Shown: piece after piece, positions 1-59,054 of the stretch
How the letters are laid out: every line of letters starts with the position of its first letter
How positions within the stretch are numbered: the first letter of the stretch is position 1
NCBI RefSeq assembly: GCF_964355755.1
Contig: NC_092677.1
Location: 4,717,001-4,781,000, forward strand
Direction of reading: 5' to 3'
DNA length: 64,000 nucleotides
Origin: Antedon mediterranea
Lineage: Eukaryota > Echinodermata > Crinoidea > Comatulida > Antedonidae
Translations under genes and position numbers: made by a program
Notes under the pieces: model-generated
The model's database searches: none
What the model saw: only the letters and a program-made list of their open reading frames with translations
What the model was told of the DNA's origin: nothing

Positions 1-1884
1 ACGTTATATCTACTTCTTACATTGATCGTAGTTCATAGATTTATTTTTTATTATTTCCAATCGATTAAAAGACCTTTTCATATCACAAACAATGATCGTG
101 TGCGTGGTCCAAAACAAGAACTTAAATAAAATAAACTATAGGCTATGCATACTGGAAAATTATATCAAGGCCTATACCTGCTTTACAGTTCTCAAGTGTT
201 GCTGTTTGTTTTAGCTTTCCATTCTCTGCATAACACGTAATATTTGGTTTACATATCTCATCATTAATTTCTATAGTTGCTGTATTGTCTGCTTTTACAA
301 CCACTTCTCCATCTTTTAATATCAATACTGATGTTGGCTTGGGATGGCCCTCTGCTGTACAAGTTGCAATACCATCTCCAAATGCAAAAGTAACATGAAT
401 AGCTAAAAAAATAATAATACAATCGGCATTATAGGCTACGGTTGATGCAACTCGATTCGTAATGACCATTTGTTTTTAGCATTTGGGTAAAATATATTAG
501 TTAGAAGAATTGGTGTAGAGGCGGGTGGGGGCGGGGGGGGGGGGAGGGGGTCCAAAAGGGAAAGGTTTATACTGATATTGTCCAAATAAGATCAATATTA
601 ATTTGACATACTATAAACAAGTATGTTCATCTGTTTTCCCAAAAGGGAAAGGTTTATACTGATATTGTCCAAATAAGATCAATATTAATTTGACATACTA
701 TAAACAAGTATGTTCATCTGTTTTCCAACACTTGTTTTAGCATCCTCGCCTTTAAACTGATCACTTTCTGCTTTACATGTATATCTCCCACCATCTTCTT
801 GAGTAGCTGATTTTATTTCAAGAACTGACTCTGTACTGTTATTGGTAATCTCATATCTAGAAGGGTTGTTGGTGTTGACTGTCTGTCCATCTTTATACCA
901 AGTAATGTGAGGAATAGAATCACCATCAGGTTTACTACAGGTAAAGGTCACTGATTGACCTTCATAGACACTACTTGATGAGGCATCAAGAAGTGGTTGA
1001 TCTAAATCTGAAGAAAAATAAGACGCTAGATTACTGGGCTTGCCATATTCAACACCTGTAAACAGGTGGACTGAGAAATCTGTGATCATCAACAAGAAAA
1101 CTAAAAACGAAAATATCCTTTAGCAGATTCTTTGCTATTTAAGAGAATTTAATCTGTGTTACTCACAGTATACAGTTAGAATAGATGGATTTGAGCCTCT
1201 AATTATCCCCTCCGTTGTTCGTATTTCACACTGAAATGTTCGTCCAGAATCAGATCTCATTGGCTGTGACATCACCAAGTCAGCTTTCTCGGGTGTTGTA
1301 TTTAATGTAAAACGCCCGTTTTTAATCTTAATATCATTAACAAGGTTAATAGTAGATCCATCTTCATTTAGTTCATTCCATTCTATTGCAACAGGTCTAG
1401 TAGAAGTAAATTGTGAATAATCACAAGTTATCACTACTTCAACATCACCTTCTTTGGCTGTCTGGTCAGACGTTGTCACCAATTGACCACGTGATTCTAA
1501 AGATTAAGAATGCAAAACGTTACTCTCTTGCTTATGCATAAATTTATAGGCTATTATTATGGAAAACTATAAGCAATATAGCCTTTTCCGTTTTTTAAAA
1601 CTTTAAGTAACATGATTGATGAATTGATACATTTTCTGATAATAAAGTATAAGTTATAAAGCAAAGAAGTAATCATGTATACATAACAACATTTATTCGT
1701 CCAATTGTGTCCTGTTTTAGATTTAACATTCATTTGTCTTTTTTTTAAACAGATACAAATTATAATGCATGCGTCTGGCTGAACATTGATTATCAATTGA
1801 AGACTATTACTGGCATATTACTCTGAATTAGTTTACCGAATAAAGAGTGTATAACAATTAACAGCACCAACCATACAGCCATAT
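1..1884 (-). CDS. IgR1: Ig-superfamily receptor, 3' part outside window
   Basis: Four coding exons can be read on the minus strand. The signal-peptide exon is 1884-1837, with ATG at 1882-1880, peptide MAVWLVLLIVIHSLF and donor GTAAAC. The V-type Ig exon is 1496-1167, with the ITCDYSQ and FQCEI cysteines. The I-set-like Ig exon is 1007-699, with TFTCSKP, ITWYKDG and GRYTCKAES. The small third Ig exon is 402-178, with CTAEGHPKP and LTCYAEN-like strands (ITCYAEN here). Exon junctions are phase 1-1, the usual arrangement for Ig modules, and splice dinucleotides fit at each edge. The transmembrane and tail exons expected from IgR3 lie left of base 1. The protein should be a secreted-pathway cell-surface receptor; the ligand is unknown. 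It is closest to IgR3, whose block at 13.3-16.3 kb is nearly the same sequence. An 87-bp duplication copies the donor of the I-set exon. Confidence 0.8.
552..725. repeat. 87-bp tandem direct duplication over a splice donor
   Basis: Copies at 552-638 and 639-725 are almost identical. The right copy holds the last codons and the GTATGT donor of the IgR1 I-set exon. The left copy repeats the same exon end and donor downstream in the intron. A G-rich run (about 524-550) lies immediately left. The equivalent site in IgR3 (13,920-13,960) has one copy only, so the duplication is recent. Confidence 0.9.
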
Positions 1885-2360
1885 CTGAGGGGAAATGATA
1901 ATATTTACATTCAATAGCATAAATTAATCTTGAAGTTCACATATATCATTGATGTAGTGTATGCCTTATCTGTTTCACTATTGTTACTATCAATAGGCCT
2001 AATTAATAAATAGAATGTAAATAATAAAGTGTACAAAGAAAAGTACTGTAACTATATAAACAAAGCTAACAGTTATAAACTCATATTAAACATAATATAC
2101 ATTGAGGACACTACATCTGTATTCGATACTCATGTCGATTGGTTAGAAAGTGTATAATAATAAAAACAACAGATATGTAACATTTCTTGTCGTCCGCGGC
2201 TAACGTAATCCCAGTAACTTATTGATAACGTCATTAAATATATCAATGTCAACAACACGCTCCTACGTTACCCACTTAAAATACGATTATCTTTCTTGGT
2301 CATTTTGTAACCATTTAATAATTATCAGTTATCATAATAATCAGTTACATTAATTACTCA

Positions 2361-4449: not shown

Positions 4450-7400
4450 CTAAATCTTTCCTCCTGTTTTCTGAAGAAAAAAAATATAACAATATTGATT
4501 ATTATCGAGATTAATTGATTTTTAAAACTCAAAACAAATAATAATGTTTTTATGGACTTTGACATTATATAAAATATTAATATCAATGCTATTACAAACC
4601 AGTGCACATCCTTTTCCTAAACAAAATTAGAGTTCCAAGTTTGTTAATTAGTTTAAATTAGGTCAAACGTCTTGTGTGGCGATGTCCGGTAATGTTATGG
4701 TGACATAGCCCTACGTTTATTATTGTTCGTTTAATATGTTTACTTGTACTTTTGAAATACATACTATTATTGACGCAGGCATGACATATCCCTCGTCATC
4801 TTCGATATCAGAGTTTGCTGAAACTTTCAATTCTTGGTAGTGATGGTCTTGACATTCGACTTTTACTTCTCTCTGTTAAACAATAGATGGTATTTATTTA
4901 ATCAAGTTTAGTTTTTGTGTGAAATAAGAAAATGTAAATGAACTGTAATTATTTGTTGAGTTTAAATTGTGTTACTTGAATTTACTCTCCACTTTTGAGA
5001 TACATACTTCTTTATCAGACATAGGCCTAACATATTCCTCGTCATCATTGTCAACATCAGTGTTTGCCGAAACTTGTAAATCTTCATATTGGTGACTTTG
5101 ACGTTCTATTTCTCTTACTTCTCTCTGTTAAACAATAGAGACGGTGTTTTGTAGTAAACATACTTTTAAGGTCAATTTAAACAGACGAGCTTAACTTAAA
5201 TTTTACCCGTATTCCTGTCCTTGATCTTTGTTTATTTGTCGTCCCGGTAACAGCAGACTCCATGGGTTCTTTCTTTAGCCATTTGTAATCCTCAGAATTT
5301 GAAGAAAATTGCAATGCTTGATACTGAGACTTTTGGCACTTGGAAAGGATTTTTTTTATTTGTTTAACCTTATAAAAGAGAAAAGTAACGATAACTCATA
5401 ACAAATTACCTCCGCCAAAGTTATATTTTCACCCATGATTGTGTATGTTAGTGTGTTTCATTTTCAAATCTCACCAAACTCGGAGACAAAGATCTACAGG
5501 TATGACTCAATTCTCACCGGAGGGGGTTAGATGTTATGTAGGGGAATTACTGTAGGTGGATGTATGCATTCTTAGATTAGCCTCTAGTGTATATCTGAAT
5601 TATATTTGAATTTGAAATATTTCTTAATGAACCTAAAAATACTTACATAGATATGACGGGTTATTATAAACGTCAGGACAACGCATAGAATTGCCGTTAT
5701 TGCTATTGTTAGCACTGTACTTATTGCATGCGAACAACCACCTAAAAGGTACAAAGTAACATGTTGAAATTGACCTCTGCATTCACCAGCACACACCAAC
5801 ACTCATACATTCAAACAATGAACAAGCGCTGTATCCAAAATGTATCAAGCCACCGTGTGCATAACAAAATACTCAATGTTATCTTTTCGACCATTACAAC
5901 CCTAGGTTAAATTATATATGCATTTTCTATAATCTAATTCTTTCTTGGTTAAATACATTTGATGACATGCTCTTAAGTCAAATTACCTGCGTTACAGTTC
6001 TCTAGAATAGCTGTATTACTCATTTTTTCATTCTCTGCATAACATGTAAGACTTGACTGACATATCTCATCATTAATGCCCAAGGTTACTGAATTTTCTC
6101 CTTTTATAACCAATTCTCCATCTTGTAAGATCAATATTGTTGTTGAAAGTTTGGGATAGCCCTTAGCTGTACAAGTTGCAAAACCATTTTTAGGTTTAAA
6201 TGTCACAGTGATATCTAAACAAGTTAGAATAGAAATGTAGCTTATTAATTGTGGGACAACTCTCTGGAATTGAAAAATAAGTTGTATACCTGTTAGCATT
6301 CATTAAAAAACTGTTTATTTAAACCACCATAAAAAGCCTGCCAAAGCTTCGGAAGGCAATTAAAATGTAGACAACCAATGCAAACAAACATTCTGAACCG
6401 TTTATCTTTTATCGAAAGCATCAAAAGCTTCGAATCAATGCTTTATAGGTTGGCAGGACCAATGTAGAGTGAAGTTGTAATCACTCTTACCTGGCAAAAC
6501 ATTTTAGGCCTATTGAAGATTGTACATTTACATACGGTATATATCCAATTGTTTTTCAACACTTGTTTTAGCATCATCTCCTTTTAAACTGATCACTTTC
6601 TGCTTTACATGTGTATCTCCCACCATCTTCTTCAGTAGCTGATTTAATCTTAAGAACTGACACTGTACTGTTATTTGTAATGTCATATCTAGATGGGTTG
6701 ATATTTATTCTGCATCCATCTTTAAACCACGTTAGGTCAGGAATAGGGTCTCCATCAGGTTTACTGCATGTAAATGTTACTGTTTCGTTTTTGAAGATAT
6801 TGGATGCGGAAGCACGAATAAGAGGTCTCTCTAAATCTGAGAAAACATATGGAAGAGACTACAATATTAGAGATAGTATAATTGGTTGTTTGCCTAATGT
6901 CTAGCAGATTGTATATTTAGTTAATGTGCGCATGATTTTTATAATCTGTTTAAACCATAAATTATTATTATAGGTCTATTTAATGATTTTGGTACTCACA
7001 ATACACAGTTAGAACAGATGGATTAGATAAGTGATCTAATCCATATGTTGTTTGTATCTCGCACCGAAATCTTCGCTGAGAATCATTTCTCGTTGGCTGT
7101 AACATCACCAAGTTAGCTCTCACAGATGTTATGTTCAATTCAAAACGACCATTTTCTAACACCTTATCATTTACAAAACCAGGAGTAGTGACTACGCCAT
7201 CTTCATTTAATTCATCCCATTGTACTGTATTAGATGTAGTAGAAGTAAATTGTGAATAATCACAAGTTATCACCACTTCAGCATCACCTTCTTTAGCTAT
7301 CTGGTCAGATGTTGTCACCGAATGACCATGTGATTCTAAAGATAAGGATACTATACTTATTTATTCAGTAAAACATAGGATATTAATTATGGAAAACTAT

Positions 7401-7724
7401 TGCAACCGGATTGAGCCTTTATATTTCAATTGCACTATTATTGTATAGATATTTTTTTTAATTGTCTCTTAATAAGTTAAGTTGGAGATAACGTGTCTTG
7501 GTGGTAAAGGAAAGAATCAAAAAGTAGTAACAGGCGTCTACTTGTGTCTTTTTTTTTATTTAAAATGTCTTTGTCTTTTATTTAAACAGATACAAGTTGT
7601 AATGCATCTAGCATGCAGAACATATATATTATTACTTAAAAACTACCAATAGGTAGTGTGTTACTAAATTGGTTACCGGGTAAAGAGTGTATAACAACTA
7701 ACAGCGGCAACCATAACACCATAT
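4450..7724 (-). CDS. IgR2: type-B Ig receptor with tyrosine-motif tail, frameshifted
   Basis: Exons on the minus strand: signal peptide 7724-7677 (ATG 7722-7720, MVLWLPLLVVIHSL), V-type Ig 7335-7000, I-set-like Ig 6836-6536, third Ig 6214-5987, transmembrane 5741-5647 (ISTVLTIAITAILCVVLTFI), and tail exons 5368-5207, 5124-5008, 4872-4765 and 4470-4450. Tail motifs are SQYQAL (fits SxYxxL), QYEDL, DDEEYVRP, HYQEL and DDEGYVMP. The last exon meets an in-frame TAG after seven codons, losing the final tyrosines kept in IgR7. The I-set exon has one extra base in the lysine run near 6585 (AAAA where paralogues have AAA), giving an early TGA and an exon of 301 rather than 300 nt. The gene is therefore either a recent pseudogene or carries a sequencing error. 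Type-I receptor by topology; ligand unknown. Confidence 0.7.
5404..5588. repeat. Copy of the CCTCCGCCAA repeat family
   Basis: It begins TTACCTCCGCCAAAG and ends CCTCTAGT, matching the two ends of the longer copy at 44,646-45,208, with the internal CACCAAACT-type stretch conserved. It lies in the intron after the IgR2 transmembrane exon. In IgR4 (17,723-17,822) the same repeat is truncated at exactly the place where the transmembrane exon has been lost, suggesting it took part in that deletion. Confidence 0.65.
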
Positions 7725-7975
7725 CTGAAAAAAATAAGGATTTTTACATTCAATAGATTAATTAATATCTACCGTTGATGTTGTTATAATCAACACTTAG
7801 TTCATTCACGGCCTAAAAATGTCATTATATCAACATTTCTGTCGTTGTCTTGTTGTTGCCAACCTCACATCGCCATTGATAACCTAATAACCGTAATAAA
7901 AGAATGAGATGATTCTAAATCACCGACTTCTTCTGCGAATTTCGAAGTAATGGCAACATGCTCCTGCTCATAAGA

Positions 7976-8148
7976 CCAATTCAGACAGCTTCGTACGACG
8001 AGTCGTCTCGTTGGGAGAAAATAAACATGTTTGAATTTCTCCCGACACACCAGGCAAGACGACTCGTCTCGTCGGAATTCAACTCAGACAGCACCGACGG
8101 GTCAAGAAGTTTTGGTGGGGCCTCGTCGTACAACGCTGTCTGAGTTGG
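7976..8148. mobile_element. Short inverted-repeat element (MITE), copy 1
   Basis: The ends CCAATTCAGACAGC and GCTGTCTGAGTTGG are inverted repeats extending through GTACGACGAG on both sides. The interior has further CGTCTCGTCG inverted pairs. It sits in the intron between the leader exon and signal-peptide exon of IgR2. Copies at 20,019-20,190 (IgR4) and 22,097-22,268 (IgR5) are in the same intron position, so they spread with the gene duplication rather than by separate insertions. Confidence 0.7.
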
Positions 8149-8832
8149 CCTTACACGTTTACACATAAATATAATATATGGATTACAGTCATCGTCGAAC
8201 ACCAATCAACAAGGGCTTAAAAACTTATGATTTTATAAATTTTATTTAAATGATATTTATTACTCACCTCTATCTCTAGGCCTATACCTGCTTATCCGCG
8301 TTTTCGATTTGTACGTATAAATAAGATATAAAGGCAATATTTGATATATATGTAATTTATTTTTTCAGAACAATTGATGATGCTAAAAAGCTAAGCGTTA
8401 GTTTCAATTATGTTATATCTAAATCTACAAACTTCTTTGTACAGTACAGTAGACTCTCGAATCAGATCGACTGATTTGTTGTTCCCCGAAAACATGAAAA
8501 ATGAAGATTAATAATATAAAAAAATCAGACTTTCCATTTGGCATTTCAAATAAAGTTATTCACTTCCGTAGACAAACGAACATAAATAATGATTTTACTT
8601 ATGAAAATACAATAAAAAACGGCTAGGCCTATATTTCAGGTAAATAATTAGTGAATAAAAAATATGTGAAATTAAAATGGCATTTTTAACAAAACAATGT
8701 GTTTTAAATATATTTTCTAAGGAGACAATATGCCTATCTTTAATCAAAACTGTAGTAAAAATACAATAAATACGCAATTTTCCTTGCTAATTTATTTTCT
8801 TTAAAGTTAAAATAAATGTACGTGAAAACGAC

Positions 8833-11800
8833 TTATGTATTCCGAATGTTAGAATAATGTGATTCTCCTCCTAAAACGTTTCCCTTATTTGACAACGTAC
8901 TGACAACACATTTCCCCTCACTTAGGTTCGGCTCTTCGTAAATGGCAGCACTTTCCGAATCTTTCACTTCTTGATATTGATTATTACTTTCGATTTCTCT
9001 TACCCGTCTCTGCACCCGTCGATGCGCCTGCTTGAAACAAATATGTATTTATATATTAACAATGATAAAGATATGCACACTGAATTTGTTACTAAAGGAA
9101 TACCGTATATAAATAAAAAACATGAATATAGAAATAAAGATGCAACCTGTCCCGATCTATCATAGGGATAACCGGTATGGTTCACTAAAATATTTATATT
9201 TCTAGTTTCTGTAGAAGCAACCACACGTGTTATTATCAGTGTTGCTTCTGATCACACAACTTTGTTTATGGAGGACGTAAGCGTAACGTAAAGCTCTGTC
9301 TATTCTAACAAACTTTATGTGATAAAAAAATGATGTAATATCACTACCATATTTGAGCATATCACTACCATATTTGGGCACATCACACTTTTTTTGCAAA
9401 ACTAGTTTGATAGTGTAGACAGAGCTTAATTGATTTGGCCAATCACAAGCGATGGATTATTTTAACTTTCACTTGTCATTGATCAATTCGCATGTGTTGC
9501 GTCTAAACAAAAGAAGTTAAAGCGTGGTTCCCACTAGCGACGCATCACAAGGATGTAACGCAACGCAAGTTAATTGACCAATCACAAGCGATGGCTTATT
9601 CGCTTGTGATTGCTAAAGGCCGGTGCACACCAAACGCGAAGCCGCGAATTTCGCGTTAAAAAGTGACGCACGCGGCAGGCGACGGACGCTTCCAGTGTGA
9701 ACATACAAGCGAACAGTGTACGATAGTCGAATTTCAACTTCAACGCGTTGAAAACGACAGCCGCGAAGGCTTCGCACGCGAATTTTCAAAAGTTGAACCT
9801 TGGTCAACTTTTTGAGGCGTCGCGAGCGCGGTTTGCGTTCGTCAACCAATCAGAAGTCAGGAATATCTCTCAATCGACGACACCGACGGCAAAAAAATGG
9901 TGGCTGACGAGCGAGGTCTTTATGGAAATACTTACCCTTCTTGTCTTTACGATAAGGGAAGTAAGTCATACACAGACAGAAACATAAGGATTAATGCATG
10001 AAGACAATAATTTCAGACAAACATCTGTGTAGAAGAATGCCAGAAAAACTAGGCCTAAAACGCGTCAGAGATCAATTTGTAAAGTGAGTTGACAAGCCTA
10101 TTTCTAGCCTAGGCCTAGGCCCTAGGCCTACCTAGGTTTAGGCAATACTAGGGCCTAGCTAGGCCTACCTAGCCTAGGCTACATATACCCTAGTAGGCTA
10201 GGCCATGCCAAGTAGTACTTATAGGCCTACATAATACTTACTAATCCCTACTAGTCTATGTGCTAGGCCAGGCCTAGCCTAGGTTAAGCCTACTACTAAA
10301 TATGAGTACAGTACCTAGCCTACTTATTATTATTAATTAATATTTATAGGCCTAATATTTAGTTGATTTAGTGTTGTAAGGCTAGGATAGGCCTAGTAGT
10401 AGTAATATTAATACATAAATACTGTTGTTTTTTTTAGGTCAATTAGATGAACATTGATAAATGGGATCCTTCAGGCTATTACCAGCGTTACAAACTCCAC
10501 CAATGACCAAGCTAGTAGTTTAAGCGGCCAGTATTATTATTGCCATGGAATTAAGAGCAATTGCTCCTCAAAAACGTGGACTGGCAATTATGAGGCTGAT
10601 ACAGGTTTGTATAGACTTTTTTCAAATGGGTATGTCAGTTGGTGACATACATTGGCCAGAAAAAAATGATTTGAGCAATATGCCTTACTATAGCAATTTT
10701 TTAATACTTGTTTCATTTTTTTTTTAATAGAAAATGGAAGAGATTAAGGAGGAGTTGGACTGTAACTAGTATTTATTAAGTGGTTATAGAAGGAAAGCTG
10801 AACTGAATGTCTTTTTTTAGCAATAGAGAACACATGGAAATATATGTATATGTTTTGTTATACTCCAATACTAAAAAAATAGTCAAATTGGCTGCCAGCT
10901 AATGGAATGTTTTTCATTTTATAAGTGAAAACATAAGTTTTGTTGGGTTTTTTCTATGTAAGTGATCTTAACTTCTATAATTTAAAATTTTTTTTATTTC
11001 TCTATTTTATGTACTTTCACTATTATATATTCATATTTTAGTCTACTCTGTAGCAATGTTAGTATACTTAGGCATACGGGAGTCACGACTTAAAGTTCAG
11101 TGAACTTACTGTGACTTCCATCCACCCACATTTAATATATTATGTTATGTAAATGTAAATGATATATATATAATATATAAGTGAGTGGAAAAAATAAATA
11201 AACGAAACGAAACGAAACGAAACTTTGTTAAAACTACAAAATGGCCTATTCAAATTTGATTTTAATCATCTTCATTTTTCATGATTCTATGGGACAATAC
11301 ATCTTTAAGTTTAGTGTCATTTTTTGGAAAAGATATATTGTCTTCCTGAAAATATAATTTAAAACATTTTCGTTGTGTGTAATACAGTATAACACTTTAG
11401 GGTTAGTTATTCACTTTTAACAATAATAATATTTCTTCAATTTTCATTTTTTTTGGGATGATACATTTTAAATTTATTATTTTGATATTATTTTGCAAAA
11501 GTATTCAGGAGTAGTAAAAAAGAAAATCTGGTTGATATTTAATGATACCTTTAAAAACAATGATTCACTATTTCAATAAGTGTATTTATGTGAAAAAAAA
11601 GTCATAAGATAATAAATACAGTGTAAATATGAGTTTGGGACATTTATTACATTTAATCAAATGAGAATAAAACTGTATGTTTTGTCATGAATAATATAAT
11701 ATTTAATAATAATTAGAAAATAAATGTGAAAACTTTACATTAATATATAGGCATATAGTTTATATTTTTAAAGTGACAAACCCATGAAGATTCCCAGTTC

Positions 11801-14800
11801 GTGTTTATATGAAATGTTTTATATGGTTATAATAACCTCTGTTGAAAGATATTTGTAACACCACTAATAAATACAGTCAGCAGATCACATGTACGTGTAA
11901 TCAACATGCAATAAATGCTTTAATTCTTGTAACTGTATTGATATTGGATACATCTTCTTCTGTCCTTGTTATATATACATACAATCATGCACATTTCAGG
12001 CTTTGGAAAAGGATAACATTTTCCCACCAAAACCAAACACTGTGATTGGTGTAACCAGGGAAGAGTTAAATTACATTTTAATTTAACTCTTCTCTGGTTA
12101 AACTTACATAGGAAATACTTCAGAGTCATCTTCTCTGATTATTTTAAATGTAGCATTGTATTATTGGCCAACCCACTATCTCCTAGGCCTAGCAATCGCG
12201 ACGAATCAGCACATCGTGACGCGTTTAGTGGGAACCGACAAGAAAAACTAATAGACGCATGACAATTCAACTTTCAAAGCGATCCGTCGAGTGACGCATG
12301 ACGCTTCGCTTGTCATTGGTTAAAACGCTTGCGTTGCGTTTACGTCCTTGCGTTACGTTCTAGTGGGAACCAAGCTTTAACGAGGGTTAATCAAAGATTA
12401 CATGTAATAGTAGTTTATTTGTACCTCGTGTTCTTTAGAAGATGCTTTACGTGACGTAGTTCTGGCCCTGCGTCCATCATATACTGAAGTATCTTTGCTG
12501 AGTTCTTGGTAAACACCAGAACCACTTGATGCAAACTGCAGTGCTTGATACTGAGAATGTTGACATTTTGATTTCATTTCTCTTATTCGTCTTTCCTAAA
12601 GAAACAATAGCAAGATACCATTGGGTGACATTTTATTTGAAATATTAATATTAGATATTTATACATTTAGTATGGTTTTTAAATCATGTGTACAAATCCT
12701 AAAATAATGGGTTTAAATAGCGACTCTATTATAGACCACACCAAGATTGTACTCGTGTGAATAGGCCTAATAATGATATAAATATGAGACTTAATGACCT
12801 TTCTATATTCTGTAATTGTCGAAACGAAATAATTAAAATACTATTTTTAATCACTTACATTAAAGGAAATTATAAAGACAACATTTTAAAATCTGACCTA
12901 CTCTATGTTGGTACCGTATTTATAGTAAGATCTTTAAAAAAGGTTTCTTCCTCTCTTTTAACCTTCTTATTATCTGTATGATCCCTCTATAATCAACTAC
13001 ATTTGGTTAAATGTCTTTCATGTTAAAATATATGCGTGTTTGTTAATAATCGTAGAGTCTATACTTACATAAATATAACGGGTTGTTATAAAGGTAGGAA
13101 CAGAGCCGAGAAAAAGCGCAGTTGCTATAATTGCTACAGTTAGTACTGTAAATGTTGGACACGATTCACCTGGAAATATAATACATTTTAACATATGAAT
13201 ACCATTATTATAATGTTTAGGGCATTCAAAATCTTCATCCGCCACCCTGATATGCTTGTTATACACCAAATAGAAACATAGCTTGCAATTATTTTATTGG
13301 TGATTTTATAAGAAAACTTAATGTTAATAAAAATACGTTATATCTTCTTCTTACATTGATCATAGTTCATAGATTTATTTGGTTTTATTTCCAATCGATT
13401 AAAAGACCTTTTCACATCACAAACTATGATCATGTGCGTGGTCCTACTTTTAAAACAAGAACTTACATAAAATAAACTATACGCTATGCATACTGGGCAA
13501 TTATATCAAGGCCTATACCTGCTTTACAGTTCCCAAGTGTTGCTGTTTGTTTTAGCTTTCCATTCTCTGCACAACATGTAAGATTTGATTGACATATCTC
13601 ATCATTAATTTCTATAGTTGCTGTATTTTCTCCTTTCTTAACCACTTCTCCATCTTGTAATATCAATACTGATGATGGCTTGGGATGACCCTCTGCTGTA
13701 CAGGTCGCAACACCATCTCCAAATGTAAAAGTAACATGAATATCTAAAAAAACACAATAATACATTCGGCATTAGGCTACGGTTGATGCAACTCGATTCG
13801 TAATGACCATTTGTTTTTAGCATTTGGGTAAAATAAATTAGGTTTTTAAGAAGAATTGTAGAGGGGGAGAGTGAAAGCGGGGTGGTGTTGGTGATGGTGA
13901 TGGTAGTGGTGAGGGAGTTTATAAATGTTTATTTTACATACTATAAACAATTATGGTTAGCTGTTTTCCAACACTTGTTTTAGCATCCTCTCCTTTATAC
14001 TGATCACTTTCTGCTCTACATGAATATCTCCCACCATCTTCTTCAGTAGCTGATTTTATTTCAAGAACTGACTCTGTACTATTATTGGTAATCTCATATC
14101 TACAATGACTGTTAGTGTTGACTGTTTGTCCATCTTTATACCAAGTAATGTAAGGAATAGGATTACCTTCAGGTTTACTACATGTGAAAGTCACTGATTG
14201 ACCTTCATAGACAATACTTTCTGCCGCAGAAAGAAGTGGTTGATCTAAATCTGAAGAAAAATAAGACACTGTAGATTACTGTGCTTACTACATTCAACAC
14301 CTGTAAACAGGTGGACTGAGAGATCTGTGATCATAAACAAGAAAACTAAAAACGAGATCCTTTAGCAGATTCTTTGCTATTTAAGAGAATTATTGTTATA
14401 TAATAAGTTATTGAAATTTAATCTGTGTTACTCACAATATACAGTTAGAATAGATGGATTTGATCTTGCAATATCTCCATCTGTTGTTCGTATCTCACAT
14501 TGAAATGTACGTTGATAATCAGATCTCATTGGCTGTGACATCACCAGTTCAACTTTCTCATGTTTTATGTTAAATGTAAAACGTCCATGTTCTATCTTCT
14601 TATCATTTACAATGTTAATGGTATATCCATCTTCATATACTTCATCCCATTGTATTACATCAGGTGTAGTAGAAGTAAATTGTGAATAATCACAAGTTAT
14701 GACCACTTCAGCATCACCTTCTTTGGCTGTCTGGTCAGACGTTGTCAACAATTGACCACGTGATTCTAAAGATTAAGAATGCAAAACGTTACTGTCTTGC

Positions 14801-15132
14801 TTATGCATAAATTTATATACTATTATTATGGAAAACTATTGTAAGCAATATAGGGGTTTCCATTTTTTAAAACTTTAATTAAAATTATTGATAATAAAGT
14901 ATAAGTTATAAAGCAAAGATATAATCATACATAACAACATTTGTTCGTCTAATTGTGTCCTGTTTTCGATTTAACATTCATTTGTCTTTTTTTTAAACAG
15001 ATACAAATTATAATGCATGCGTCTGGCAGAACATTGATTATCAATTGAAGACTATTACTGGCATATTACTCTGAATTAGTTTACCGAATAAAGAGTGTAT
15101 AACAATTAACAGCACCAACCATACAGCCATAT
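8833..15132 (-). CDS. IgR3: type-A Ig receptor with ITIM-like tail, intact
   Basis: A complete reading on the minus strand. Exons: signal peptide 15132-15085 (ATG 15130-15128, MAVWLVLLIVIHSLF), V-type Ig 14765-14436, I-set-like Ig 14250-13942, third Ig 13743-13519, transmembrane 13169-13069 (FTVLTVAIIATALFLG core, then TRYIY), tail exon 1 12595-12425, tail exon 2 9027-8833 ending in TAA. All splice sites and phases agree. Tail exon 1 holds SQYQAL, VYQEL and SVYDG; tail exon 2 holds NQYQEV, AIYEEP and SHYSNI. SQYQAL and SHYSNI fit the ITIM pattern (S/I/V/L)xYxx(L/I/V), so recruitment of SH2 phosphatases is a reasonable inference. The transmembrane segment has no charged residue, so pairing with an adaptor through the membrane is not suggested. 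A 2.86 kb transposon separates the two tail exons. Confidence 0.85.
10090..10290. repeat. AGGCCT/CCTAGG palindromic-word-rich stretch
   Basis: About 200 bp composed largely of AGGCCT, CCTAGG, TAGGCC and CTAGGC words in irregular order. Shorter runs of the same words occur at about 34,980-35,050 and 40,515-40,555. It is low-complexity sequence typical of this genome, with no gene signal. Confidence 0.6.
12047..12098. repeat. Hairpin inside the TTAA element
   Basis: AACCAGGGAAGAGTTAAATT pairs with AATTTAACTCTTCTCTGGTT across a short ACATTTT-type loop. It is probably the pair of ends of a small nested MITE. Confidence 0.7.
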
Positions 15133-19764: not shown

Positions 19765-20018
19765 ATCTGAAAAAAATTAAGGATTTTTACATTCAATAGA
19801 TTAATTAATATCTACCGTTGATGTTGTTATAATCAACACTTAGTTCATTCACGGCCTAAAAATGTCATTATATCAACATTTCTGTCGTTGTCTTGTTGTT
19901 GCCAACCTCACATCGCCATTGATAACGTAATAACCGTAATAAAAGAATGAGATGATTCTAAATCACCGACTTCTTCTGCGCATTTCGAAGTAATGGCAAC
20001 ATGCTCCTGCTCATGAGA

Positions 20019-20190
20019 CCAATTCAGACAGCTTCGTACGATGAGTCGTCTCGTCGGGAGAAAATAAACATGTTTGAATTTCTCCTGACACGCCGGGCAA
20101 GACGACTCGTCTCGTCGGGATTCAACTCAGACAGCACCGACGAGTCAAGAAGTTTCGTGGGGCCTCGTCGTACAACGCTGTCTGAGTTGG
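20019..20190. mobile_element. Short inverted-repeat element (MITE), copy 2
   Basis: Same element and same intron position as 7976-8148, in the IgR4 leader intron, with small substitutions. Its ends are CCAATTCAGACAGC and GCTGTCTGAGTTGG. Confidence 0.7.
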
Positions 20191-20857: not shown

Positions 20858-21845
20858 TTATGTATTCCGAATGTTAGAATAATGTGATTCTCCTCCTAAA
20901 ACGTTTCCCTTATTTGACAACGTACTGACAACACATTTCCCCTCACTTAGGTTCGGCTCTTCGTAAATGGCAAGACTTTCCGAATCTTTCACTTCTTGGT
21001 ATTGATTGTTACTTTCGATTTCTATTACCCGTCTCTGCACCCGTCTATGCGCCTGCTTGAAACAAATATGTATTTATATATTAACAATGATAAAGATATG
21101 CACACTGAATTTGTTATTAAAAGAATACCGTATATAAATAAAGAACATAAATATAGAAATAAAGATGCAACCTGTCCCGATCTATCATAGATAGGGAAAT
21201 GATAATATTTACATTCAATAGCATAAATTAATCTTGAAGTTCACATATATCATTGATGTAGTGTATGCCTTATCTGTTTCACTATCATTAACAAAACCAG
21301 GAGTAGTGACTACGCCATCTTCATTTAATTCATCCCATTGTACTGTATTAGATGTAGTAGAAGTAAATTGTGAATAATAACAAGTTATCACCACTTCAGC
21401 ATCACCTTCTTTAGCTATCTGGTCAGATGTTGTCACCGAATGACCATGTGATTCTAAAGATAAGGATACTATACTTATTTATTCAGTAAAACATAGGATA
21501 TTAATTATGGAAAACTATTGCCAACCGGATTGAGCCTTTAAATTTCAATTGCACTATTATTGTATAGATATTTTTTTTAATTGTCTCTTAATAAGTTAAG
21601 TGTGAGATAACGTGTCTTGGTGGTAAAGGAAAGAATCAAAAAGTAGTAACAGGCGTCTACTTGTGTCTTTTTTCGATTTAAAATGTCTTTGTCTTTTATT
21701 TAAACAGATACAAGTTGTAATGCATCTAGCATGCAGAACATATATATATTATTACTTAAAAACTACCAATAGGTAGTGTGTTACTAAATCGGTTTACCGA
21801 GTAAAGAGTGTATAACAACTAACAGCGGCAACCATAACACCATAT
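20858..21845 (-). pseudogene. IgR5: deletion chimera (signal peptide, half V exon, type-A last exon)
   Basis: The signal exon 21845-21798 is intact (ATG 21843-21841, MVLWLPLLVVIHSL). The V-type exon begins at 21453 but stops matching IgR2 near 21,286, after PGFVND. From there to about 21,190 the sequence is instead first-intron sequence of a type-A gene (compare 1885-1980 and 15,130-15,240). At about 21,190 it joins the intron next to a type-A last exon, which follows at 21052-20858 (QYQEV, IYEEP, SHYSNI, then TAA). I-set, third Ig, transmembrane and first tail exons are absent. The V cysteine context is altered too (ITCYYSQ). At least two recombination junctions are needed. It might still yield a small secreted fragment, but I treat it as a pseudogene. 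Confidence 0.8.
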
Positions 21846-22096
21846 CTGAAAAAAATAAGGATTTTTACATTCAATAGATTAATTAATATCTACCGTTGAT
21901 GTTGTTATAATCAACACTTAGTTCATTCACGGCCTAAAAATGTCATTATATCAACATTTCTGTCGTTGTCTTGTTGTTGCCAACCTCACATCGCCATTGA
22001 TAACCTAATAACCGTAATAAAAGAATGAGATGATTCTAAATCACCGACTTCTTCTGCGCATTTCGAAGTAATGGCAACATGCTCCTGCTCATAAGA

Positions 22097-22951: not shown

Positions 22952-25900
22952 TTATGTATTCCGAATGTTAGAATAATGTGATTCTCCTCCTAAAACGTTT
23001 CCCTTATTTGACAACGTACTGACAACACATTTCCCCTCACTTAGGTTCGGCTCTTCGTAAATGGCAGCACTTTCCGAATCTTTCACTTCTTGATATTGAT
23101 TGTTACTTTCGATTTCTATTACCCGTCTCTGCACCCGACGATGCGCCTGCTTGAAACAAATATGTATTTATATATTAACAATGATAAAGATATGCACACT
23201 GAATTTGTTACTAAAGGAATACCGTATTAATAAAAACATAAATATAGAAATAAAGATGCAACCTGTCCCGATCTATCATAGGGATAACCGGTATGGTTCA
23301 CTAAAATATTTATATTTCTAGTTTCTGTAGAAGCAACCACACGTTTTATTATCAGTGTTGCTTCTGATCACACATCTTTGTTTATGGAGGACGTAAGCGT
23401 AACGTAAAGCTCTGTCTATTCTAACAAACTTCATGTGACAACAAAATGTGATGTACCCTTATGGACACGATGATGTCATATCACTACCATATTTGAGCAT
23501 ATCACTACCATATTTGGGCACATCACATATTTTTTGCCAAACTAGTTTGATGGCGTAGATAGAGCTTAAGTGATTTGACCAATCACAAGCGATGGATTAT
23601 TCCAACTTTCGCTTGTCTTTGATCATGCGTTGCGTCTAAACAAAAGAAGTTAAACGAGGGTTAATCAAAGATTACATGAAATAGTAGTTTATTGGTACCT
23701 CGTGTTCTTTAGAAGATGCTTTACGTGACGTAGTTCTGGCCCTGCGTCCATCATTTACTGAAGTATCTTTGCTGAGTTCTTGGTAAACACCAGAACCACT
23801 TGATGCAAACTGCAGTGCTTGATACTGAGAATGTTGACATTTTGATTTCATTTCTCGTATTCGTCTTTCCTAAAGAAACAATAGCAAGATACCATTGGGT
23901 GACATTCTATTTGAAATATTAATATTAGATATTTATACATTTAGTATGGTTTTTAAATCATGTGACTGTGTACAAATCCTAAAATAATGGGTTTAAATAG
24001 CGACTCTATTATAGACCACACCAAGATTGTACTCGTGTGAATAGGCTTAAGAAGAATATAAATATGAGACTTAACGACCTTCCTATATGTTGTAATTGTC
24101 GAAACGAAATAATTAAAATACTAATTTAAATCACATTAAAGGAAATAATAAAGACAACATTTTAATAATCTGACCTACTGTATGTTGGTACCGTATATAA
24201 TAAGATCTTTAAACAAATTAATTCCTCCCGTATTATCTGTATTTTAAATTTATAATCAATTACATTTGTTAAATGTCGTTAAATTATATGTCTGTGTGTT
24301 CGTAGAGTTTATACTTACATAAATATAACGGGTTGTAATAAAGGTAGGAACAGAGCCGAGGAAAAGCGCAGTTACTATAATTGCTACAGTTAGTACTGTA
24401 AATGTTGGACACGATTCACCTGGAAATATAATAATTGTCAACATATGAATACTATTATTACAATGTTCAGGCCATACCCTCCCCTATGTCAAAATCTTCA
24501 CCCGCCACCCTGCTATGCTTGTTATACACCAAATAGAAACATAGCTTGCAATTATTGTATTGGTGATTTGATAAGAAAACTTTATGTTACATTGATCATA
24601 GTTCATAGATTTATTTGTTATTATTTCCAATCGATTAAAAGACCTCTTTTACATCCCAAACAATGCTCGTGTGCGTGGTCCTACTTTTAAAACAAGAAAT
24701 TAAATAAAATAAACTATACGCTATGCATACTGGACAATTATATCAAGGCCTATACCTGCTTTACAGTTCAAAAGTGTTGCTGTTTTATTTAGCTTTCCAT
24801 TCTCTGCATAACATGTAAGATTTGGTTTACATATCTCATCATTAATTTCTATAGTTGCTGTATTTTCTCCTTTCTCAACCACTTCTCCATCTTGTAATAT
24901 CAATATTGATAATGGCTTGGGATGGCCCTCTGCTGTACATGTTGCAATACCATCTTCATATGTAAAAGTAACATGAATAGCTAAAAAAAAAAAAAATAAT
25001 ACAATCAGCATTATAGGCTACGGTTGATGCAACTCGATTCGTAATGACCATTTGTTTTTAGCATTTGGGTAAAATAAATTAGCTTTTTAAGAAGAATTGT
25101 AGAGGGAGGAGGGGTGAAAGCGGAGTGGTGGTGATGATGATGGTAGTGGTGAGTACGGGAGGGAGTTTATAAATGTTTATTTTACATACTATAAACAAGT
25201 ATGTTCATCTGTTTTCCAACACTTGTTTTAGCATCCTCTCCTTTAAACTGATCACTTTCTGCTTTACATGTATAATTCCCACCATCTTCTTCAGTAGCTG
25301 ATATAATCTTAAGAACTGACTCTGTACTGTTATTTGCAATCTCATATCTAGAAGGGTTGTTGGTGTTGACTGTCTGTCCATCTTTATACCAAGTAATGTA
25401 AGGAATAGGATCACCATAAGTTTTACTACAGGTAAAAGTCACTGATTGACCTTCGTATACAGTGCTTTCTGAGGTAGAAAGAAGTGGTTGATCTAAATCT
25501 GAAGAAAAATAATACGATAGATTACTGTGCTTGCTACATTCAACGATGTTGTGTCGAGATCTGTGATCATCAACAAGAAAACTAAAAACGTAAGATCCTT
25601 TTGCAGATTCTTCGCTATTTTAGAAAATTGTTGTTATATAATAAGTTATTGAAATTGAATCTGTGTTACTCACAGTATACAGTTAGAATAGATAGATTTG
25701 ATCTTGCAATATATCCATCTGTTGTTCGTATCACACACCTAAATATTCGTTGAGAATCATTTCTCATTGGCTGTGACATCACCAAGTCAGCTTTCCCAGG
25801 TTTTATGTTTAATTTAAAACGTACATTTTGTATCTTCTTATCATCTACAAGGTTTATTTTAGATCTATCTTTATACAGTTCATCCCATTGTATTTGAGGT

Positions 25901-26374
25901 GTAGTACTAGTAGTAATTACTTGTGAATAATCACAAGTTATCACCACTTCAGCATCACCCTCCTTGGCTGTCTGGTCAGATGTTGTCACTAATTGGCATC
26001 GTGATTCTATAAAGAGTATCAAACGTCTAGTCTTTATTAGACAGTAATAGGCTATTAATTGAAAACTGTATATAAGTTGTTTTTTTTTTAAACTTCAATT
26101 GAAATTATTTATGAATTCATTCATATATTTAAAAAAATATATTTTGAGATAAAGTTTCTTGATAAAGCAATAATCATACATAACAACATTAAAACGTCCA
26201 CGTGTTCTTTTTTTGGATTTAACATTCATTTGTCTGTAATTTTAAACAGATACAAATTATAATGCCTTTATCAGACCATATTCTATCGCTTAAAAACTAT
26301 CATTAGTTAGTACTGAATTAGTTTACCGAATAAAGAGTGTATAACAATTAACAGCACCAACCATACAGTCATAT
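22952..26374 (-). CDS. IgR6: type-A Ig receptor with ITIM-like tail, intact
   Basis: Exons on the minus strand: signal peptide 26374-26327 (ATG 26372-26370, MTVWLVLLIVIHSLF), V-type Ig 26006-25674, I-set-like Ig 25498-25190, third Ig 24980-24756, transmembrane 24419-24319, tail exon 1 23869-23699, tail exon 2 23146-22952 with TAA. All phases match IgR3, exon for exon. The tail has SQYQAL, VYQEL, NQYQEV, IYEEP and SHYSNI; the SVYDG tyrosine of IgR3 is Asn here (SVNDG). The V domain is slightly longer in the C-C' region (ITTSTTPQIQW) and has an extra Cys near its start (ESRCQL). The short intron between tail exons (about 550 bp) is the empty site for the transposon seen in IgR3. The complete open reading suggests a functional gene. 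Confidence 0.85.
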
Positions 26375-28084: not shown

Positions 28085-30088
28085 TTAGTTATAGAACTTT
28101 TGAGAATAATGTGGTTCTTGAGTCTTTCTTTTTTGTGACGTACTAGTAACACTATCACGTGACATATGTCCTTCGTACTGGGGATTTTGAGATTCTATTT
28201 CAATCCTTTCTCCTCTTTTCTGAAAACAATAACATTATTGATTATTATTTTGATTAATTGATTTTTAAGTCAAAGCAAATAAGTAAAAATCTTGACAGTA
28301 TATAAAATAAAATATCAATTTCATTTCATCAAACCCAAAAGACATTTACAATCAATTAATTGTTAAATCAGTTAGTATCACACTCCAATTACTGTAGGCC
28401 CACCTCGTCGTTTCAGAATTATTAATTTATAGTGAAATTAAAAATGTTAACCTCTAGTTTGCGCACTTCTTTCTTTGACGCCTTAACGTGTTTATCTTTT
28501 TTTCTGTGTTTATTAGAAACTCCATGCAGTCCTTGGTATTGAGGATTTTTTACTTCTATTTCCTAAAAAAATAAGTTAACGTTAGTTGTTTCTGAATATT
28601 TTAGGTGATGATGGTGAGGTTAACTTAAATTCGTATTACCCCTATGAAATGAAATACATAATATCCCAATTTATTTATTTTTTAATACATACTACTTTAT
28701 TAGACGTAGGCTTGGTATATCCATCATCGTCCACGCAAGAGCTTGCTGACTCTTTCACACCTTGGTACTGAGGATTTTTGCATTCGATTTCTATGACTTC
28801 TTTTTCCTAAAAAATTAGTTCCTAATCGTTAATTATAAAGGTATTGTTAAATATGTGGCGATGCCCAGTGACGTTATGGTTCGTTTAAAATGTTTAATTG
28901 TACTTTTGAAATACATACTATTTTAGACGTAGGCTTGACATATCCCTCGTCATCTATGTCAACACCAGGGACTGCTGAAACTTGCAGTCCTTGGTACTGA
29001 TGATGTTGACTTTTGAATTCTCTTTCTCTCTGTTAAACAATAGATGGTCATGATCGTTAGGCCCAAACATAAATAATTTGTATATTTTGCTTTCAAAGGT
29101 GTATCTTCTTAAAAGTGTCTTAGAAATACGAAAATAACTAAACTAAATTTTAACTTGACTTGGTTAAAGTTAGGAACTCACTATTGACCTTAACTACGAT
29201 TCTGATTTCAACTCACTCAACTACACATCAATTTGTAGCCAGGGAATGGTAACCATTTTCGTTGATCACCCATGTTTCTATTAGTGACTTTTCGATACAT
29301 ACTACCTTATTAGACGTGGGTCTAACATATCCCTCGTCATCTAAGTCGACATCATTGTTTCCCGAATTAACTTGCAGATCTTGGTACTGATGACGTTCAG
29401 GCTCGCTTAATCCTCTCTGATAAATAAATGGTTTGTGTTAGTATTATTGATGTTTAGTTGTGGTATTTGTATATATAATTATGAGGAAAAAAAATTTAAA
29501 TAGCACAATTGACTTTAAGATACAATTTTACTTCCCGCTCTCATTTACACATACTGTAACTTTTTCTGTAACGCTTTGATCGGTCATGTGGATATTAGGG
29601 ACTATAAGTTGAAATAGTGTCACTTAAGTACTAAAACGCTGTGATGATACCTCAATGGCCTTGGTGTATCCTTCGTCATCTATGTCGACATCACAGTTTG
29701 CCGAAACCTGCAGATCTTTGTACTGATGGTGTTGAAGTTCGATTTCTCTTACCTCTTTCTGTTAAACAATAGATGTTGCTTGTGTAAATATTGATGTTTA
29801 GTTTTATATACTCTGCATGACATGTATATGGAATAATAAGTAACTAAACTAGTGAACGTGACTTCACAAAAGCTATCAAATGGGTTGTTTGTTGTTAGGC
29901 CTACATAGAAAGTTTACCTGTATTCTTGTCCTGGATCTTGCTTTATTTGACGTCCTGGCAGCACTAGCCTCCACTGTAGGACCTTTGTTGAGCTCTTTGT
30001 AATCTCCAGAATTTGCAGAAAATTGCAATGCTTGATATTGTTGAGGAATTTGAGATTTTGAAAGGATGTCTTCTTTTATTCGTTTTAG
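28085..30088 (-). CDS. IgR7 cytoplasmic exon array (repeated tyrosine modules)
   Basis: Seven consecutive phase 0-0 exons of 108-171 nt (last 135 nt with stop). In order, the motifs are: QQYQAL and DYKEL; HQYKDL and DDEGYTKA; HQYQDL and DDEGYVRP; HQYQGL and DDEGYVKP; PQYQGV and DDDGYTKP; PQYQGL with a Lys-rich end; PQYEGH and PHYSQKFYN. Exons 2-5 are clear tandem duplicates at the protein level. IgR2 and IgR4 keep only two such modules. YxxP after an acidic DDEG resembles SH2-binding sites of the Crk/Nck type, and the acidic context resembles Src/Syk substrates; these are inferences from motif shape. Confidence 0.82.
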
Positions 30089-33000
30089 CTATACAAATAT
30101 CGGTAAACACAGATACTATCTAATTAAAGTTTATCTGTGCTTTCAATTATTATAAGTTTCAAGAAAGTATTTCATAAAAATTTAAAAGTACTTACATAGA
30201 TATATCGGGTTATTATAAACGTAGGCACAGAGCAAAGAATTGCAGTTATTGCTAAAGTTATCAATATACTAATTGCATACGAACAACCACCTGTAAATGT
30301 CAATGTAAAATTTTGAAATAATGTTATCCACCAAAAAATGTTATACTTCAGAAACAATTACAAACGAAATCACACAATTTCATACATGCAACGTGCATCA
30401 ACGTGCACAATATTCATCTAAAGTAATTTAATATTAAATTAAAACATTATTCTTCAACGAAGCAAGTGGGAGTTAGAGTTTGTCATATTGTTATTACTTT
30501 CGTCGTGGTCGTCGGCGTGTTGTCATTAACAAAGAAATTACACTCGATAGGGTGTGTTGTAATTAAAATTACCTGCTGTGTTTTTTTCATTTTCTGCATA
30601 AAATGTAAAACTTGTTTGACATATTTTATTAGTTCCTAAAGATGATGAATTTTGTATTATCAGTACTGCTGGCGGTTTCGGATAGTCCTCTGCTGTACAT
30701 GTTACAAGATCATCTTCAGGTTTAAATGTTACAATGATATCTAAACAAAACGAGTAATATAACCTTGAGTACTGTTAATGTTCTTTATTCTTTATTTAGG
30801 GTCCCAAAAATATATTATTGAATTATTGTATATTTTATGAACTTTATATACCATATATATACAACTGTCTTCCTTCACTTGTTTTAGCATCATCTCCTTT
30901 AAACTGATCACTTTCTGCTTTACATGTATATCTGCCACCATCTTCTTCAGTAGCTGATTTAATCTTAAGAACTGACTCTGTACTGTTATTTGCAATATCA
31001 TATCTAGAAGGGTTGTTGGTGTTGACTGTATGTCCATCTTTATACCAAGTAATGTAAGGAATAGGATCACCATCATGTTTAATACAGGTAAAGGTCACTG
31101 ATTGACATTCATTGATGACATTTGCTGACGCAGAAAGAAGTGGTTGATCCAAGTCTGAGAAAAATTTAATAAAGTATCCATGTTACAAACTTGTTCTAAA
31201 TGTTTGTAACAATATACTTACTTATTTGTTTCTAGTTTTACATATCTTCGATCTTACTTTTTACATACAATATATACCGTAATTTTAGAAATAAATACAT
31301 GTATCTATATGATAATTTGGGTTTGTTATTGTAAAACTCGTTAGTGGGTGAATGGATGACGCCCTATAAATATCACAATGTGTATTAGATGTAGTTCCAT
31401 GTAAACCTTTTGATTTCGTTTTTAAAGCGGTTTTAATTTTTCTATAAAATACATTTTACAAAATACAAATTAATGAATGAGCTCACGCTATTCCACCTGG
31501 TATAGTACATTCTTCCGGCAAGAGAGACACGTTCGACAATCATTCAACGTTCAGTCCGTAAGTACCACCATTGTTCAATGCTTATTTCTGATATCACAAT
31601 TAACCCTACCCCTCCCCACCTCCTGTTTTATGTGTAACACTTTAAATAAGATTCATGCACGGTTTTATTAGGTTATAGAATTGTAATGTAGGCCTACTAT
31701 AGGTAGTAGAAACTCTCGTTACAAGTTACATCGGCACGCCTTCTCCCCCTAATTGAATTTTGTGCCAATTTCTGATATACAACAAATCCGCAACGCTTGT
31801 TTAATGTTACAAACGATAGACCTAGATTCGCGTAGGCCTACTGTATTAATATTAGGCTTTTGGGTAACAAATGTCAGCACCCAAATCCAAGTATTCGAGT
31901 CATGTGAAAGTTACTGGTACTGGTAGCGAATTGTGTACATATTTCTTTAAGGTACACTTTTTATAACAACATTCATGTACTGCATACAGTATTCTTACTT
32001 TTACAACAGAAGCCATGGCCTAGGCTCAATCAGACACGATTGTCATTGCATCCAAATCCACTTTCAATTTGGGTAATTATACTGGCACTTCACCATATTC
32101 AACTTTGTGCATATTTTAAAAATATATATAACCCGCCTCATTTGTGTGTAACAATTTATTAACATTCATGTACAATAAAAGTATAAATATATAAATTATG
32201 TACTAAATTGTGTATTTTTTTCTATCATTAATCAGACAGAAATGACAAACGAAAATCAAGCTAGAATTGATAAGGCAATAAAGGATTTCGGAAATGTGTC
32301 GAGATACAACAACATGTACTAAACAAAATCTCATATAACCAAGAAAAAATGTTCCCTTTTTAAAACTCTTTATACTCTCTCCAATCCAATGATTCCTCTT
32401 AACTGATTGAAACATTGTAGGCCTAGATTCAGTACTGAATTACTTATAATAAATAATAAGTATATGTAGTTGGCATATTTGATTTGTGTTAATAAAAAAC
32501 CATCATTATGTTTTTCATTGTACAATAATAATAAAAATACTGTATATATAATATATATATTTTTTTAATGTATATATTTATATGTAAAGAATTGATTATA
32601 TTCTACTAAATTTATAATATAATAAGGATTGAGGGAGATACTCGTTGTGCATTATTCATATAAAGGAAGTTATGTGTTAACTTACAATATACAGTTAGTA
32701 TAGATGGATTTGATCTTTTAATTTCACCATCTATTGTTTGTATCTCGCACTGAAATGTTCGTTGAGAATCATCTCTGATTGGTAGTGACATCACTAAGTC
32801 TGCTTTCCCAGGTTTTATGTTTAATTTAAAACGCCCATTTACTAGCTTCTTATCATTCACAAGGTTATATGTAGATCCATCTTCATCTAATGCATCCCAT
32901 TGTATTGCAGCAGGTGTAGGAGTAACTCTTGAATGATTACAACTTAATACCACTTTAGTATCACCTTCTTTGGCTTCCTGGTTAGATGTCAGTTGACCAT

Positions 33001-33321
33001 GTGATTCTAACAAAATAAATTGTGTTTATTATTGTTTTGGTCCGTTTATGCGAACTACAAACATACCACGATGGTATCATTTTAAGTTGAAATTCATTCT
33101 CATTCATTCGTTCGTTCTTGTCGTCTCACATTATAAGTGGTCAACGTAATGAAGATAACGTTTTCTGGCATATGCACAACTTTACCTACCAGTTTGTCAT
33201 GGTTAAAATTAATTAATTACAATTAATAAATAGGCATATCAATACATTTAGCGTTTTATACTATAATTAATTTACCGTCAAATGAATGTATAACAATTAG
33301 CAGCGTCAACCATAATGTCAT
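28085..33321 (-). CDS. IgR7: type-B Ig receptor with seven-exon tyrosine-motif tail
   Basis: Exons on the minus strand: signal peptide to 33276 (ATG 33321-33319, MTLWLTLLIVIHSF), V-type Ig 33006-32686, I-set-like Ig 31154-30852, third Ig 30740-30573, transmembrane 30290-30196 (ISILITLAITAILCSV core), tail exons 30088-29918, 29758-29651, 29416-29303, 29029-28919, 28806-28693, 28562-28452 and 28219-28085 (TAA). All are open and phase-compatible. Four tail exons repeat one module: YxxL/V, about 12-15 residues, then DDEGYVxP or a variant. The third Ig is shortened, and its second cysteine is Phe (FTFYAEN). The acceptor before the signal exon reads CAA where all others read CAG, so the leader may be spliced differently. 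The cytoplasmic part looks like a scaffold for several SH2 proteins. Confidence 0.85.

Positions 33322-59020: not shown

Positions 59021-59054
<34 letters not shown>

Follow-up and report, generated by a model that had tools for sequence, protein, structure and literature searches.

In vertebrates, KIR, LILR, Siglec and CEACAM are clustered, duplicating receptors of the immunoglobulin superfamily (IgSF), with tails that carry the immunoreceptor tyrosine-based inhibitory or activation motif (ITIM or ITAM). Fish NILT receptors are described in the same terms (PMC3022915), and receptors of such a kind are already known in invertebrates as well. The FcoR genes of Botryllus are presented as a multigene set that encodes type I IgSF receptors, each with a V-type domain and with ITIM, hemITAM or core YxxL motifs in the tail (PMC12065747). 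Hydractinia Alr is reported as a cluster of 41 IgSF genes that combine V-set and I-set domains and include ITAM/ITIM-bearing candidates (PMC11999971, PMC12065747), and oyster CgIgIT2 as an invertebrate IgSF receptor with an ITAM and five Ig domains (PMC11999971). Within echinoderms, to which crinoids are placed as the sister of all other living groups (PMC11336682), sea urchin transmembrane models with V-type Ig domains are described as V-set plus C1-set (PMC3308324), while the main text of a 2026 review presents receptor diversity as Toll-like, NOD-like and scavenger receptors together with Sp185/333 effectors and mentions neither ITAM nor ITIM (PMC13428168). In the present study we analysed a 64-kb stretch of the genome of the crinoid Antedon mediterranea (the window, meaning the whole of this stretch), which carries a tandem array of Ig receptor genes with tyrosine motifs in their tails, and we consider it reasonably probable that these belong to a crinoid family of type I recognition receptors signalling through phosphotyrosine, for which an innate immune or a self/non-self role would be the likeliest.

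The minus strand of positions 1-33321 holds seven related Ig receptor units, built on a plan of signal peptide, V-type Ig domain (D1), I-set Ig domain (D2), third Ig domain (D3), transmembrane segment (TM) and phase-0 tail exons. The cluster does not stop at 33321, because an eighth unit, with another tail, begins on the plus strand at 38998. The units are as follows:

178..1882, minus strand: U1, running off the window; signal peptide 1882-1837, V-type D1 1496-1167, I-set D2 1007-699, D3 402-178, TM and tail past the window edge.
4765..7722, minus strand: U2, dead; exon set visible, but D2 frameshifted by one base and the final tail exon, near 4490-4340, degenerate.
8833..15130, minus strand: U3, intact, an unbroken protein of 458 residues; signal peptide 15130-15085, D1 14765-14436, D2 14250-13942, D3 13743-13519, TM 13169-13069, tail exons 12595-12425 and 9027-8833.
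17039..19809, minus strand: U4, a dead copy of U2; signal exon truncated, D1 interrupted by a stop, D2 frameshifted, and no TM exon found.
20861..21887, minus strand: U5, a fragment; signal exon, half of D1, a piece of another 5' region and a copy of the final tail exon.
22952..26372, minus strand: U6, intact, 459 residues; signal peptide 26372-26327, D1 26006-25674, D2 25498-25190, D3 24980-24756, TM 24419-24319, tail exons 23869-23699 and 23146-22952.
28085..33321, minus strand: U7, intact, 596 residues; signal peptide 33321-33276, D1 33006-32686, D2 31154-30852, short D3 30740-30573, TM 30290-30196, tail exons 30088-29918, 29758-29651, 29416-29306, 29029-28919, 28806-28696, 28562-28452 and 28219-28085.
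38998..45993, plus strand: U8; D1 38998-39327, D2 43201-43512, D3 43720-43944, TM 45441-45515, class II membrane-tail exon (KYRPSIARF, Cys-rich) matched at 45736-45993.

All introns of the five units modelled (U1, U2, U3, U6 and U7) are GT-AG, with phase 1 at the ectodomain exon borders (in U2 the phases are displaced by the frameshift in D2), and the TM exon passes into the tail in phase 0 in U3, U6 and U7. An earlier note on this DNA had ascribed to seven units a common exon set in identical phases; the seven related units are there and the phases agree in U3, U6 and U7, but the full set is not present in all, U2, U4 and U5 being broken. The exon chain matches deposited protein models, since U6 from D2 to the stop (332 residues) is identical to A. 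mediterranea P0001, and P0001 and the paralogue P0002 join D2, D3, TM and tail in agreement with our models. The first 279 residues of U7 (D1-D3) differ at one position from A. mediterranea P0009, which after D3 reads on from an alternative acceptor (first base 30417, minus strand) and ends in DEYCAR with no TM; P0009 is possibly a soluble form of U7. The array also bears out the proposal of recent duplication with intact genes next to dead neighbours: matches of 5742-9165 to 17822-21190 at 95.6% and of 678-2996 to 13921-16263 at 91.6% indicate recent copying. In self-comparison, blocks about 12-14 kb apart are 95.6-96.8% identical, another copy about 2 kb off is 95.7% identical, and older pairs are 88-92% identical.

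Tails have two exons in U3 and U6 and seven in U7. Each of the seven (171, 108, 111, 111, 111, 111 and 135 bases) is divisible by three in length and lies in phase 0, so that skipping an internal module would leave the frame intact. In the first tail exon of U2, U3, U4, U6, U7 and P0002 we found YQAL-x(8-9)-Y(Q/K)(E/W)L, a pair with ITAM spacing; in other words, the YxxL/I-x(6-12)-YxxL/I pattern of ITAM-bearing receptors occurs in six of the 10 Antedon first tail exons compared, two of the six being the dead U2 and U4. P0011, P0012, P0031, P0032 and P0025 lack the pair in this exon. The ITIM pattern [SIVL]xYxx[LIV] occurs twice each in U3 and U6 (SQYQAL, SHYSNI), P0002 and P0006, once each in P0012 and P0032, and neither in U7 nor in nine others of the 16 tails; among the six further modules of U7, five carry YxxL/V, three YxxP and three NPQY. 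When compared with composition shuffles (16 related tails and seven motifs, p values uncorrected), YxxL/I/V was in excess in U3 (4 against 0.81 expected; p 0.002), U6 (4 against 0.74; p 0.002) and U7 (7 against 2.18; p 0.003), and the ITAM-spaced pair reached p 0.008, 0.006 and 0.032 in U3, U6 and U7, respectively. The shuffles speak for genuine enrichment in these three units, and P0002 and P0018 show motif excess as well, with an ITIM-pattern excess in P0006. In Anneissia P0018 another module occurs four times in a row, with HTYQGL in one copy and HTYQDL in three, and TAYVN after each, and therefore tail amplification happened in Anneissia too.

Of the suggestion of two tail classes as in an activating/inhibitory family, the two tail types are there on the minus strand, but they do not make a clean pair, because both start with two YxxL motifs in ITAM spacing. 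In addition, K, R, D, E and H are absent from the TM cores in U3, U6 and U7, which thus lack the charged TM residue of vertebrate activating paired receptors. The vertebrate ITIM/ITAM clusters differ from the crinoid array in this respect and in that U7 multiplies tail exons within the gene, and no close vertebrate relative was among the matches listed. As to the ectodomain, I-set and Ig_3 scored well over cut-off in U6 and U7 (best over D2), which places these proteins in the IgSF, while D1 of U8 taken alone gave 21.6 for V-set, under the cut-off of 26. VCBP proteins are secreted and defined by a chitin-binding domain, whereas U6 and U7 gave no chitin-binding match and P0004, a family member outside the window, has a predicted TM helix. 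In a structure model of P0004, aligned with 20 relatives, D1-D3 are predicted as Ig folds and the helix lies at residues 317-346; the predicted local distance difference test score (pLDDT) of the model has a mean of 78.8, with blocks of 84-94 over residues 41-130. Within the ectodomain the prediction is best for D1, which can be superposed on antibody V domains at 2.0-2.2 Å across 97-101 residues.

In kind, Botryllus FcoR and Hydractinia Alr come nearest to the crinoid family. Like the crinoid array, FcoR is a multigene set of type I IgSF receptors that have a V-type domain outside the cell and YxxL-type tails inside, yet FcoRs are described with a sushi domain between Ig domains, SH2 domains at many loci and pairing with fester genes (PMC12065747). 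Pfam scans of U6, U7, P0006, P0016, P0018 and P0025 found Ig families only, with no sushi or SH2 match, and the matches listed show no sequence link to FcoR. Hydractinia Alr is similar in its clustered IgSF genes with V-set/I-set domains and ITAM/ITIM candidates (PMC11999971, PMC12065747), but is cnidarian, and no Hydractinia protein was among the matches listed in a word-limited search of a database not checked for the presence of Alr. Oyster CgIgIT2 has the ITAM in common, with five Ig domains (PMC11999971) as opposed to three Ig domains and a clustered family in the crinoid. The sea urchin models share an echinoderm transmembrane V-type Ig domain, although described as V-set plus C1-set (PMC3308324), and no named sea urchin protein was among the profile matches listed.

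Sequence and profile searches found at least 27 crinoid proteins of the family, at least 15 from Antedon (counting the isoforms P0005/P0006) and at least 12 from Anneissia japonica. The profile search scored the best 8000 candidates by shared words and listed 83 matches; the other 56 are, as far as named, generic Ig proteins (best E 7e-30, with 12% of the query covered), with no other named family member among them, and 12 of these 56 are nameless, so that an echinoderm could be one of them. With residues 280-596 of U7 as query and E allowed up to 10, P0011 and P0012 were the sole matches among the best 7999 candidates scored. Among the matches listed, then, the family appears only in crinoids, with no named close relative outside them, in line with the impression of the earlier note that no named invertebrate family has this exact plan; among the titles and abstract openings listed on crinoid immunity, echinoderm ITIM and sea urchin ITAM/IgSF, a coverage mostly without subscription papers, none describes a crinoid Ig receptor family with ITAM/ITIM tails. 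The contigs that carry 14 of the 15 Antedon proteins are consistent with one chromosome, P0031 being on another contig.

Ectodomain and tail have different histories in this family. A tree of ectodomains (24 sequences: five window units and 19 of the 27 crinoid proteins, leaving out P0001 and P0009 as window loci, P0005 as an isoform of P0006, and P0008, P0018, P0019, P0031 and P0032) placed Antedon and Anneissia on two sides with support 100/100. Two membrane-tail segments are common to both genera, namely class I (U6 against Anneissia P0025, 25/70 identical, z 16) and class II (P0006 against P0016, 42/106 identical, z 34); none of 200 shuffles scored as high in either case, and the pair U6-P0006, class I against class II, gives z 4.6 as a yardstick for two membrane segments. 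In approximately unbiased (AU) tests, one clade of class II ectodomains was rejected at p 3e-72 (four rows; P0029, whose tail also has KYRPSIARF, is in the tree but outside this test), and one clade of class I ectodomains at p 2e-4 (eight rows), the latter value being weakened because P0025 was grouped into class I only once the tree was known, whereas class II had been noted before it. The P0014/P0017 tail type is in neither test (P0018, of the same type, is not in the tree). A mosaic of ages is visible even along one gene, as synonymous divergence (dS) between U3 and U6 is 0.24 in D1 and D2, 0.06 in D3, 0.08 in TM, and 0.03 and 0.05 in the tail exons. The simplest account would be that class I and class II tails predate the split of the genera and that ectodomains were replaced or homogenised in each lineage, and ectodomain clades by genus along with two cross-genus tail types fit a recognition family.

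Variability in D1 is about 1.8-fold that in D2 (0.91 against 0.51 bits in 12 sequences; 0.78 against 0.43 in 10 sequences, without leader residues, U2 and U8). The ratio of nonsynonymous to synonymous substitution rates (dN/dS), here between paralogues of one genome and not alleles, was 0.49-1.04 for whole D1 (15 pairs) and 0.36-0.99 for D2 (10 pairs), and for D3 it exceeded 1 in two pairs, 1.46 in U1-U6 and 1.26 in U3-U6, which differ by very few changes (dS 0.06). In D1 of six sequences, including the dead U2, the ratio of nonsynonymous to synonymous differences (pN/pS) was 0.97 in loops against 0.65 in strands. The FG loop gave 0.322 against 0.276, and the excess in the three distal loops is not significant (21/300 permutations).

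To hypothesize, the V-type D1 and the two further Ig domains would bind a ligand outside the cell, upon which kinases might phosphorylate the tyrosines of the YxxL-type tail motifs and SH2 proteins would be recruited. The first tail exon could provide ITAM-like signalling of Syk type, U3 and U6 could add ITIM-type sites, and U7 could add YxxP and NPxY docking. As the exon lengths show, the tails grow by copying of phase-0 exons, and splicing could add or skip such modules in frame. Duplication and exchange may renew the ectodomains in each lineage while tail types persist, and the receptors would most likely sit on coelomocytes or epithelia and serve innate immunity or the distinction of self from non-self. 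A bolder proposal, which we offer tentatively and regard as unlikely, is a self/non-self or immune locus of the crinoids' own that uses the ITAM/ITIM code, with strength set by the number of phase-0 tail exons carried or spliced and with ectodomains swapped between tails, i.e., an independent counterpart of vertebrate paired receptors. It has been proposed that recognition systems converge on one tyrosine code (PMC12065747); a germline ITAM/ITIM-tailed Ig family in a crinoid would add another deuterostome lineage to this, and the repeated-exon tail offers a direct test of motif number against signal strength.

Several observations weigh against a recognition family signalling through phosphotyrosine. 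The YxxL/I/V excess is not significant in P0011, P0012, P0032, P0025, P0014, P0017 and P0016, the tails of P0003, P0005 and P0026 have no YxxL/I/V at all, and P0011 and P0012 have lost the first YxxL. There is no clear positive selection, D1 dN/dS not being clearly above 1, and the Anneissia tail type P0014/P0017/P0018 has no clear partner in Antedon (best z 4.0 in a comparison of P0014 and P0018, which does not exceed the yardstick of 4.6 between class I and class II). Finally, the deposited names disagree among themselves (hemicentin-1-like, JAM-like, lachesin-like, neogenin-like), and hemicentin, JAM and lachesin suggest adhesion molecules. The earlier note is in sum partly confirmed in what it observed and partly supported in how it interpreted this.

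The names lead to the strongest alternative, which we judge possible but rather less than probable, that of an adhesion or wiring family specific to the lineage and comparable to JAM, nectin or Dpr/DIP, homophilic or heterophilic, acting in tissue patterning, nerve or regeneration, with tail tyrosines that anchor scaffolds. It agrees with the JAM-like and lachesin-like entries and with the best fold matches of D1-D2, which were CEACAM1, CD166, Dpr/DIP and JAM within about one Z unit of each other (13.3-14.4, root-mean-square deviation 4.0-8.3), a second look limited to Foldseek's candidates that singled out no family. CEACAM itself includes immune receptors, however, and a conserved adhesion family would not be expected to form a young cluster in which some copies are dead and the ectodomains make up a separate clade in each genus.

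The tails of CED-1/Draper/MEGF10 contain NPxY and YxxL. An engulfment or scavenger receptor, in which U7 would multiply NPxY and YxxL sites to recruit phosphotyrosine-binding (PTB) and SH2 adaptors for phagocytosis, would explain why a single tail has three NPxY (0.03 expected, not reached in 5000 shuffles) next to its seven YxxL/I/V, but the ectodomain is of Ig and not EGF-repeat type and U3 and U6 have no NPxY, and we hold this improbable. A third alternative, very improbable in our view, is that most of these genes are relics and that the array is decaying, with soluble decoys and few copies that still function. Two dead units of seven, one fragment and the TM-less P0009 speak for it; against it stand three complete chains, Anneissia relatives with TM and tail, and U3-U6 tail dN/dS values of 0.28 and 0.14, which on few changes suggest constraint. 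We retain recognition receptors, immune or self/non-self, as the favoured interpretation of the array.

Beyond the minus-strand units, the plus strand continues with Ig-coding stretches and BNR-like pieces, as follows:

51673-51804, 53034-53351, 53719-54060, 59242-59448, 60380-60691 and 60950-61318, plus strand: further Ig-coding stretches.
62072-63879, plus strand: BNR-like pieces.

Stretches 53719-54060 and 59242-59448 match P0019, several of those from 51673 to 63879 match the paralogue P0026 in order, and the U8 exons, the later Ig stretches and the BNR-like pieces (38998-63879) together match deposited P0026, mostly in order; these plus-strand stretches may form one long gene with U8 or be a neighbour. 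P0026 has 1166 residues with three Ig domains, TM, a Cys-rich stretch, more Ig domains and BNR_2 (E 1.5e-15), while the window open reading frame (ORF) 62393-62674 is under the BNR_2 cut-off. The Cys-rich stretch may cross the membrane a second time, or two genes may have been fused in the models; against solved structures, the C-terminal part of P0026 gave weak matches only (best E 0.18, a sialidase-like protein). For the signal exon of U8 there are three weak candidates, none convincing, and between its D1 and D2, at 42502-42600, lies a relic of the first part of a D2 exon with a stop at its end. In P0006 (Antedon, outside the window), the isoform X2 tail has VTYADL and IKYVDL, which fit the ITIM pattern and lie in an insert missing from isoform X3 (P0005); looked for in U8, they were not found.

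Of the remaining features, the palindrome TAGGCCTA occurs 39 times in the 64 kb against 0.6 expected by base composition, and two-copy tandem repeats lie at 552-726 (87 bases, 100%) and 34367-34536 (86 bases, 96%). Long ORFs on the minus strand at 54914-58522 presumably belong to a BEL/Pao-type retroelement, and a tRNA-Thr (TGT) gene is present at 58801-58874.

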